From: a virus
IMG/VR virus record: IMGVR_UViG_3300030329_003676
Span: 1 to 41,002 of that record
Reading direction: 5' to 3' (one strand)
DNA: 41,002 bases
Part shown: positions 4,734-27,314 of the stretch, one piece after another
How the letters are laid out: every line of letters starts with the position of its first letter
Position numbering within the stretch: position 1 is the stretch's first letter
The notes under the pieces: model-generated
Databases searched by the model: none
What the model was told of the DNA's origin: nothing
The model's input: only the letters and a program-made list of their open reading frames with translations
Translations under genes and position numbers: made by a program

Positions 4734-4909
4734 TAAGCAACCCTCTCAGTTTCTTTAGCATAAGCAGATACACCGAATAGAGCCATTGTATAACCTGCAC
4801 TCTTCTCTGATTCATCTTCAATCAAAGATACAGATGATTCAATAGCTTCGCTAATGGTAGCTTCTAGTGATAGAAGTTTACCTTCTTTAAGCATTAAGAG
4901 CATACTCAT
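4733..4909 (-). CDS. Small helical protein between capsid and neck genes
   Basis: A 58-residue reading frame starts at the ATG complementary to 4907-4909, with AGGAG five bases upstream, and ends in TAATG overlap with the next gene. The product (MSMLLMLKEGKLLSLEAT...) is predicted to be mostly helical: a hydrophobic first turn, an acidic middle (LIEDESEKS) and a GYTMALFGVSAYAKE tail. The good ribosome site, tight packing and coupling make it a real gene. Function is unknown. It could be a small head-completion or scaffolding accessory protein. Confidence 0.6.
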   Translation of the reverse strand: MSMLLMLKEGKLLSLEATISEAIESSVSLIEDESEKSAGYTMALFGVSAYAKETERVA

Positions 4910-4917
4910 TGTTGCTC

Positions 4918-5336: not shown

Positions 5337-6476
5337 TTACTCTTGTGTAACGTTGTGGATAACGCAGTGGTAACCTGGGGGACCGAAGTCTATTCCCATC
5401 TCCATATACACTGCTTTTCCAACTCTTGCATAATCGTCTTGGTCTAAGTCTCTTACGAACACAGTTCCATATCCTGGGATATTTGTGAAAACTGGTTGTA
5501 TGAAAGCAAAGTCAAGCAAGAAAGCTGCACCCTTAGAGTTAGGCATTATGTTAGGGTCGATAACCATCAATCCGATAGCTCCAAAAGGAGTAACGATTGT
5601 ATCGATATCAACACCTGCGATATTTCTATCTCTTGGAAGGATAGCTGCATTCATTGCAGTTGCAGGACTTGTAGCTTCTACTAGCTCTTTGTTAAGAGAA
5701 AGAAGCTGCCCTGGAGTAACAACAAGAACTGGTTGAATCATTGGTGCCTGAGCATCATACATTCTTTTCATGACACCAGCGACTGTGTCCCAAGTCATCT
5801 TTTGTCTAGTTCCTGAATCGTCTCCATCTGTGTCGTTGTAATAAGCGTTTCCACCGTTAGCAACAGAAGCTGCAGTATTGCTAGCATTCTTGTTTAACTG
5901 TAGATACTCATACAAACCACGCATCTCTCTAGTTCCTGAACCAGGGGTTGTGTTAGCACCATCAGCAAAAGTACCGTTGAATGCAAACCATTCAACTTCT
6001 CTTGCCAACTTCTCAAGAGCTAATGTTAATTGCTCTGAGAACTCATCAACTATTGGGTTACCACCAGCTAGACCTAATTTGTCAGCTGCTGTAACTGTTC
6101 CATCACCATCTGAAGAGTTAATAATATTTGCACTCAAATCAAACGGATTTTGATGTTGAAAAGTTGCCATAGCTGTGTAAGACATTTTTACACCCTTATG
6201 GAAAACCTGAGTAACGCCTGTAAATGCAACTCTATCTCTACCTAAGTATTCTGTAGGCTGAGCTCCTTCTTGACCTTTAGTAGGTTCAGAAGAAATTGTT
6301 GCACTATCGGCTACTTGAATTTGCCAGAAAGTTGACTGTAATACCTTACCGCCATTTAAACCACCAATTGCAGAGAGGAAGGGAGTCCTTTGACCACCAA
6401 CACGAAATAACTCACCAGTAAAGTTGTTAACGTTCTGGGAGTAAATTGTACTATTTGTCAGCGATATAGCTGCCAT
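5337..6476 (-). CDS. Major capsid protein, HK97 fold, SU10/DUF5309-like
   Basis: This 379-residue protein has a strong GGAGG site 7 nt before the ATG. It follows a scaffold-like gene and precedes a decoration-like gene. Residues 1-110 hold an N-arm and E-loop-like region (NSTIYSQNVNNFTGELF..., FWQIQVADSATISSEPTKGQ, then VTQVFHKGVKMSYTAM). A long helix follows (DEFSEQLTLALEKLAREVEW). The centre has MTWDTVAGVMKRMYDAQAP and PVLVVTPGQLLSLNKEL, typical of the P-domain/A-domain of the DUF5309 (SU10 major capsid) family. The C-terminus carries beta strands (GAIGLMVIDPNIMPNSKGAAF...) as in that family. There is no protease gene nearby, so cleavage of a delta domain is not indicated. The MCP call is strong from context; the family name is from recognition, not a search. 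Confidence 0.85.
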   Translation of the reverse strand: MAAISLTNSTIYSQNVNNFTGELFRVGGQRTPFLSAIGGLNGGKVLQSTFWQIQVADSATISSEPTKGQEGAQPTEYLGRDRVAFTGVTQVFHKGVKMSYTAMATFQHQNPFDLSANIINSSDGDGTVTAADKLGLAGGNPIVDEFSEQLTLALEKLAREVEWFAFNGTFADGANTTPGSGTREMRGLYEYLQLNKNASNTAASVANGGNAYYNDTDGDDSGTRQKMTWDTVAGVMKRMYDAQAPMIQPVLVVTPGQLLSLNKELVEATSPATAMNAAILPRDRNIAGVDIDTIVTPFGAIGLMVIDPNIMPNSKGAAFLLDFAFIQPVFTNIPGYGTVFVRDLDQDDYARVGKAVYMEMGIDFGPPGYHCVIHNVTQE

Positions 6477-6988: not shown

Positions 6989-7176
6989 ATCGTACCTCCT
7001 CACAGTATTAACCTATCAGACTAAGCCTGTGGAACCTAGCCGTGGTGTTACCCCTCACACTTGACTTAAGGTTGGGTAACAAGACCCTAAGTCCTTACTC
7101 TGCGGTTTCTATACAAGCTTTCTACGCAGGCTCTGAAAGCTGATTGCAGGTCTACTAAGCGGACCACGCAACGCTA
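6989..7176 (-). ncRNA. Structured leader RNA with two tandem H-type pseudoknots
   Basis: This is a gene-free 187-nt gap that looks more G+C-rich than its surroundings. Read on the minus strand it starts with a hairpin (7168-7171 with 7144-7147, then 7162-7165 with 7149-7152). Pseudoknot 1 has stem 1 of 7 bp (7141-7135 with 7122-7116); its loop bases 7129-7125 (CTGCG) pair with 7104-7100 (CGCAG). Pseudoknot 2 has stem 1 of 10 bp with one G-U (7093-7084 with 7072-7063); loop bases 7081-7074 (TGTTACCC) pair perfectly with 7053-7046 (GGGTAACA). Loop lengths (5/2/11 and 2/1/9) suit H-type folds. A last short helix (CACAG/CTGTG, 7031-7027 with 7005-7001) touches the AGGAGG ribosome site of the scaffold gene. 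The leader is predicted to control scaffold/capsid expression or to be a separate RNA. Confidence 0.65.
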
Positions 7177-7190
7177 ATACTTATTATACA
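7177..7190 (-). promoter_or_regulatory. Candidate promoter for scaffold/capsid transcript
   Basis: On the minus strand a perfect TATAAT (complement of 7183-7188) lies just after the stop codon of the upstream gene and just before the structured leader, so transcription would begin near 7176. No good -35 box is found at the right distance: TTGTCC at 7204-7199 is only 10 nt away. It sits next to an interrupted palindrome CTGGAC-tt-GTCCAG (7197-7210), which could bind a phage activator. Confidence 0.5.
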
Positions 7191-27213: not shown

Positions 27214-27290
27214 GGGGGTGTCCAGGTATGCATAGATTTGTTAATCCCTTTTCAAATCTATATACGGGGGTTCGATTCCCCCCACCTCCA
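27214..27290 (+). tRNA. tRNA-like/tmRNA-like element without an anticodon arm
   Basis: This 77-nt element has a 7-bp acceptor stem (GGGGGTG, 27214-27220, with CACCTCC, 27283-27289) in which the third pair is G-U, followed by discriminator A at 27290. It has a perfect T-arm (five G-C pairs, 27266-27270 with 27278-27282, loop TTCGATT). In place of D and anticodon arms there is an 11-nt single strand containing AGGTA, then a 9-bp stem (27232-27240 with 27253-27261) with a 12-nt loop that cannot present a normal anticodon. G3:U70 plus A73 is the alanyl-tRNA synthetase signature shared by tRNA-Ala and tmRNA, and the 3' half closely resembles tmRNA ends. It could be a charged tRNA mimic, a decayed tmRNA, or an attachment-site remnant; no integrase is seen. 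CCA is not fully encoded. Confidence 0.5.
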
Positions 27291-27314
27291 CAATTTCTTA
27301 TAGAAAGGAGAAAT

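Follow-up and report, generated by a model that had tools for sequence, protein, structure and literature searches.

Four consecutive H-type pseudoknots (PK0 to PK3) occupy positions 7175-7001 on the minus strand of the window, the whole 41,002-nt stretch of IMG/VR record IMGVR_UViG_3300030329_003676 that was analysed, and fill the predicted 5' untranslated region (UTR) of the scaffold/major-capsid mRNA of a marine phage. The array opens at the predicted transcription start and its last member ends one base before the Shine-Dalgarno (SD) sequence (Table 1). Comparison of homologous leaders shows that the pseudoknots are real, conserved and positioned in cis. An initial annotation of the region had described a tandem of two, the present PK1 and PK2; both are present base for base when every pair is checked, and they do lie between the TATAAT box and the scaffold SD. 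The tandem arrangement therefore holds, but two was too few: PK0 and PK3 had been missed, and the four together take up the whole leader.

Organization of the leader

We infer that the array begins at about +1 of the transcript because the core of the first stem is found 7-10 nt past the -10 hexamer in most leaders of types A, AB, B and C (see below for types), with up to 11 nt in ten of type C; the few apparent distances of 3-4 nt involve alternative TATA choices. In the window, which carries a type A leader, the first stem of PK0 opens at the eighth base after TATAAT, and no good match to a -35 element is found upstream of this -10 box. The G+C content of the leader is 46%, compared with 35% for the window, as had been expected from its appearance. 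Loop lengths from PK0 to PK3, counted from the sequence, are 1/5/2/3 nt for L1, 0/2/1/1 nt for L2 and 5/11/9/13 nt for L3, and the modules are separated by linkers of 3, 6 and 4 nt; the loop lengths are compatible with H-type geometry, in agreement with the earlier reading. A protein-coding leader is ruled out by the stop codons in all three frames and by the lengths of homologous leaders (197-206 nt), which are spread over 0, 1 and 2 mod 3.

Table 1. Coordinates of the leader elements and downstream genes in the window
Feature	Position	Strand	Remarks
-10 box TATAAT, leader promoter	7183-7188	minus	nearly invariant among 43 type A leaders
PK0, first pseudoknot	7145-7175	minus	S1 7175-7172/7161-7158; S2 7170-7168+7165-7162 with 7152-7149+7147-7145
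PK1, second pseudoknot (first in the initial annotation)	7100-7141	minus	S1 7141-7135/7122-7116; S2 7129-7125/7104-7100
PK2, third pseudoknot (second in the initial annotation)	7046-7093	minus	S1 7093-7084/7072-7063; S2 7081-7074/7053-7046
PK3, fourth pseudoknot	7001-7041	minus	S1 7041-7035/7025-7019; S2 7031-7027/7005-7001
Shine-Dalgarno GGAGG	6995-6999	minus	one base past PK3; outside every conserved stem
Scaffold start codon ATG	6988	minus	
Scaffold-type gene, 157 aa	6515-6988	minus	first gene of the transcript; phrog_7813, unknown function
Major capsid protein gene	5337-6476	minus	phrog_1328; PF17236 SU10_MCP 6e-43

The best pseudoknot-like match when both strands of the 41-kb window are scanned is PK2, whose S1 has 10 bp (one G-U) and whose S2 (UGUUACCC/GGGUAACA) has 8 bp, 18 bp altogether; no pseudoknot of at least 17 bp arose in 2000 dinucleotide shuffles of the leader. 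PK1, with AGCUUUC/GAAAGCU (7 bp) as S1 and CUGCG/CGCAG (5 bp) as S2, is not rare by itself, since at least 12 bp were reached in 257 of the 2000 shuffles. Minimum-energy folding restricted to nested structures, which is blind to pseudoknots, assigns the leader no unusual stability (z -0.28), and single-sequence energy was for this reason left out of the evidence; it is covariation that carries the case.

Covariation among type A leaders

Related viral contigs were collected with capsid and scaffold queries, and IMG/VR leaders were also retrieved with three DNA patterns, independently of any protein. The alignment of 43 distinct type A leaders, with the window as its first row, pairs in 92.0% of cells under the four-pseudoknot structure, compared with 31-40% when the partners are slid by 1-3 columns, although such percentages are biased upward because the structure was partly chosen from reading the same sequences. 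Repeated double changes constitute stronger evidence: 27 of the 53 pairs change on both sides, and the covariation that the initial annotation had proposed to look for reaches 0.197 compared with 0.086 in shuffled alignments, with none of 500 shuffles as high. These shuffles are uncorrected for relatedness, for which the column slides and the counts of state changes on a tree built from the capsid proteins of 56 type A phages correct in part.

The signal is distributed unevenly among the modules. PK3 is paired in 100% of cells, with both sides changed in 10 of its 12 pairs, and its pairs undergo three to nine state changes on the capsid tree, pairing never being lost. Twelve pairs of PK2 are changed on both sides; some of its pairs, in inner S1 and outer S2, are specific to the lineage of the window which, together with alignment gaps, accounts for its imperfect pairing figures. 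PK1 is paired in 99-100% of cells, and one of its S2 pairs switches six times between A-U and G-C on the capsid tree with all 56 rows paired. The two stems of PK0 are paired in 91% and 99% of cells, and compensatory changes are seen as GACG/CGTC in L013 and, read by eye outside the alignment, as UUGA/UCAA in L021, AGUC/GACU in L480 and GUG/CAC in L494. Covariation support is thinner for S2 of PK0 and much of PK1 because both vary little in the alignment. Stems thus mutate with compensating changes, and all related marine phages examined that have this gene order retain a pseudoknot array; the region being non-coding as well, none of the refuting outcomes named by the initial annotation was observed. 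Invariance also extends to many unpaired bases within a type: examples are the GUAGwGU that flanks PK1 and, in type C, the central pseudoknot in its entirety.

Array types and module exchange

Further arrays with different sequences occupy the same position in phages that share the gene order upstream gene, scaffold, capsid. Type C (28 leaders) consists of three pseudoknots paired in 96.1% of cells, with a covariation of 0.264 compared with 0.112 and none of 500 shuffles as high, to which its invariant central pseudoknot contributes no information. Type B (25 leaders) also has three, paired in 97.9% of cells (0.283 compared with 0.140, 0/500 shuffles). Type AB, known from six capsid variants, combines the type A modules PK0 and PK1 with a final pseudoknot that resembles the one of type B; the hybrids L107, L111, L123 and L144 show this junction of type A first modules with a type B-like end. 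Pseudoknot modules have therefore been exchanged between types. Type D, a single sequence (L496) read by eye, has a central CUACG/CGUAG and a last pseudoknot formed by CAAAUUA/UAAUUUG with CACAC/GUGUG before GGAG. After merging variants that the first patterns missed, one of these arrays is present in all 157 distinct capsid-plus-upstream loci except two cultured actinophages.

The central pseudoknots of types A, AB, C and D have CCUAC[G/U]...GUAG[A/U]GU in common, a loop/S2 motif for which the window itself has CUGCG/CGCAG, and this similarity suggests common descent; type B is related to the others by layout only. That divergent arrays and a hybrid preserve one layout suggests that fold and position matter more than any single sequence-specific site. 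A descriptor of the central pseudoknot run over 498 loci returned leaders together with scattered unrelated or reverse-strand sites; being blind to the CUGCG version, it is uninformative on a second copy in the window.

Genomic context

A capsid gene lies downstream of the leader in all 217 loci with at least 1500 nt of downstream sequence (107/107 of type A, 59/59 of type C and 51/51 of type B) and a recognisable scaffold homologue in 216 of them, counts that include overlapping loci from the same contigs. The scaffold label derives from Mycobacterium phage Mendokysei, in which the gene at the same pre-capsid position is annotated as head scaffolding protein. From the last stem to the end of the AUG there are 14-16 nt in 56 type A leaders, and the distance is similarly narrow in B, AB and C. 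A non-coding gap at the leader position was present in 9 of 10 loci examined, other gaps being inconsistent between loci. In the window, a 184-nt gap at 4734-4917 was considered as a second non-coding element near the capsid gene and rejected, as it contains a short ORF (about 58 aa; 4734-4909, minus strand) that has its own SD, overlaps the start of the next gene and had escaped the 60-aa limit.

The initial annotation had foreseen a structured RNA before scaffold and capsid genes, as found here, and had left the choice between cis-acting control and a stand-alone RNA. The constant capsid context and the narrow start-codon spacing argue for the first. A phage RNA processed from the leader and acting in trans would suit a compact, highly structured element with its own promoter, yet it is most improbable given those invariable downstream genes and an SD one base away in type A. 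Likewise, a position in cis of the capsid genes agrees with the suggested control of capsid synthesis; how such control would be exerted, we infer below.

Position also bears on a polymerase-modifying, put-like RNA that would allow read-through of the structural operon. In HK022, put RNAs located in leaders act in cis, and the array does start at a promoter with a long operon downstream. However, the narrow start-codon spacing would have no reason in such a model, the upstream genes of the same operon are devoid of the element and put RNAs are hairpins, not known as pseudoknot arrays, so that antitermination deserves little weight.

Leader type changes four times on the scaffold tree, which is the minimum, five times on the upstream-gene tree and 16 times on the capsid tree. 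Judging from these trees, the capsid gene recombines between leader types and the scaffold gene does not. The movement of the capsid gene between leader types makes its product an unlikely type-specific ligand. The coupling of scaffold to leader type cannot be told from physical linkage. Capsid genes were surveyed across L002-L497, and in one locus (L008) a capsid close to that of the window (85%) is associated with a leader of type C. Another contig, IMGVR_UViG_3300032087_000824 (61944 bases; L422 and L471), bears two different capsid genes of this capsid family about 39 kb apart and may be a chimera, a concatemer or two joined phages.

These patterns are relevant to the main rival explanation, an autogenous translational operator, which we regard as possible though unlikely. 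Free scaffold, or another RNA-binding protein of the phage or its host, would nucleate at a pseudoknot and repress scaffold/capsid translation until assembly removes it. The scaffold of P22 autoregulates post-transcriptionally, the perfect agreement between leader type and the scaffold tree would be expected of such a ligand, and the conserved unpaired bases suggest a partner. T4 offers a further precedent, in that gp32 represses translation and binds a pseudoknot situated in the leader, 67 nt ahead of the start codon (PMC3014915). Nevertheless, the upstream gene tracks the leader almost equally, so linkage alone could explain the agreement; the swapping of capsid genes speaks against their product as a type-specific ligand; the scaffold is acidic (pI about 4.6 in all types); and no conserved stem includes the SD, for which no alternative pairing is visible either.

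Relation to known RNAs

No class covering this arrangement was known to the initial annotation, and none has emerged since. The Rfam 15 covariance models, largely pseudoknot-free, gave no match to leader types A, AB, B, C or D at E up to 1, and the best score of the window's leader was 9.2 bits against a gathering score of 53.5. No description of such an element was found in the open-access literature, which makes for weak evidence of absence. Nucleotide comparison with cultured phage records returned chance matches only, and the leaders of the cultured capsid relatives Mendokysei, Dulem virus 32 and B22 (23-30% identity) are GC-rich with no comparable array by eye.

The preQ1 and SAM-II riboswitch aptamers are small pseudoknots, and the invariance of loop bases within types would fit a sensor of host state in which the binding of a small molecule, an ion or a ribosomal component to at least one pseudoknot gates translation. 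We nonetheless consider a riboswitch-like sensor quite unlikely: no Rfam riboswitch matches, the gene context is always capsid and never metabolism, little sequence from which a single pocket might form is common to types A, B and C, and no conserved SD-sequestering alternative fold was seen, no conserved stem touching the SD.

Among characterized systems, the gene 32 leader of T4, T2 and RB69 is similar in being an H-type pseudoknot with coaxial stems in the 5' leader of a phage mRNA (PMC3014915). It differs in having one pseudoknot and an unstructured A+U-rich region, whereas here three to four are packed up to the SD, and in encoding a single-strand DNA-binding protein. Such an A+U-rich stretch is absent before the start codon of the phage leader, where the short interval after the last stem is filled by the SD. 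Leaders of the rpsO type contain a single pseudoknot involving the ribosome site, in a bacterial gene with a ribosomal protein as ligand; the phage array, by contrast, leaves the SD outside its conserved stems. The likeness to E. coli rpsO (S15) and other ribosomal-protein leaders is that of an mRNA-leader pseudoknot serving as translational operator (rpsO: PMC3014915), a role that is here only a rival. The tobamovirus upstream pseudoknot domain is likewise a run of pseudoknots, one that takes part in replication and translation of the virus (PMC4683447); it lies in the 3' UTR of a plant RNA virus, and the likeness is one of layout.

A row of H-type pseudoknots, PK2-PK4, is carried by tmRNA as well, but the phage leader sits in an mRNA and has no tRNA-like domain, tag ORF or Rfam tmRNA match. 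Elsewhere in the window, an 80-nt stretch (27214-27293, plus strand) matched the Rfam tmRNA model at 52 bits and reached from the model's first position to its last, with the acceptor stem GGGGGTG...CACCTCCACA and the T arm present and everything between missing. ARAGORN made no tmRNA call, and the match was not reproduced when a 301-nt piece was scanned again; the stretch may represent an attachment site or a decoy resembling tmRNA, and host assignment through it gave T-arm matches only, which are uninformative.

Host setting

The capsid protein is SU10-like (PF17236) and its nearest annotated relatives are mostly from actinophages. Two contigs, with type A and type B leaders, are binned in a Red Sea Actinomycetota metagenome-assembled genome (MAG) that encodes RNase E; co-binning points only weakly to this organism as host. 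In the 42 genomes (G001-G042) of the order of this MAG (RS345), streamlined marine actinobacteria that are possibly represented by incomplete genomes, no RNase J above the family cut-off was found, and one strong below-cut-off match contains a stop. Single-cell work has yielded phages of Ca. Actinomarinales (PMC7771536).

A proposed folded 5' armour for the capsid message

Our tentative proposal is that the array acts as a cis-acting folded 5' armour that would protect the capsid-operon mRNA and leave its ribosome site open. A dedicated promoter inside the structural operon would produce a scaffold-capsid mRNA with the array as its complete 5' UTR. The paired 5' end would withhold a single-stranded foothold from RppH and 5'-end-dependent RNase E, the tight packing of four pseudoknots would leave no long single-stranded stretch available for cleavage, and the last pseudoknot would hold the SD free, at a fixed distance, for ribosome loading, making the message long-lived and well translated. 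Both protection and the effect on translation are read from the architecture: the start at about +1, the gap-free packing, the free SD and a layout that is constant while the sequence changes, along with the fact that RppH and RNase E require the 5' terminus to be single-stranded, the reason for mRNA stabilisation by 5' structures (PMC3997798). Also in favour of the armour are the covariation across helices, the near-constant distance of the SD, the independence of the leader from any particular capsid protein and the acidity of scaffold and capsid proteins (median pI 4.6), unlike that of usual RNA-binding repressors. On the other side, four pseudoknots look excessive for armour since a single 5' hairpin is enough for mRNA protection in E. 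coli, and the invariant unpaired bases within types hint at a specific partner, which passive protection does not explain.

Flavivirus xrRNAs are likewise tandem pseudoknotted protective RNAs (protection being only proposed for the phage leader), and one of them blocks bacterial RNase J1 in vitro (PMC5760640). Their fold is ring-like whereas the phage leader is a series of simple H-type modules, no Rfam xrRNA family matches it, and RNase J is for the most part lacking in the putative host's order, which weakens an xrRNA-like block as mechanism if the order of the MAG is that of the host.

Significance

Leader pseudoknots in phage mRNAs and tandem pseudoknots elsewhere are already familiar. Structured RNAs before phage capsid genes are, to our knowledge, hardly known, and we know of no other DNA phages in which a chain of pseudoknots, existing in several interchangeable versions, forms the complete leader of a capsid mRNA. 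The array probably represents a new class of viral cis RNA, a modular and exchangeable H-type chain that makes up the entire capsid-mRNA 5' UTR in a large clade of uncultured marine phages and would act as a folded 5' armour or by coupling translation to assembly, in a manner undescribed for DNA phages. The novelty concerns the RNA class, and the function may prove to be of a known kind. Searches restricted to nested RNA structures overlook such elements, as the folding energy of this leader is no better than that of shuffled sequence. The leaders offer ready reporters for mRNA stabilisation, and their interchangeable modules a comparative system for studying how much capsid is made, and when, under the control of RNA folds. 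Because it is conserved across diverse uncultured marine phages in at least four architectures, the element must matter for virion production, and it probably protects or modulates the mRNA that the virus uses most heavily.
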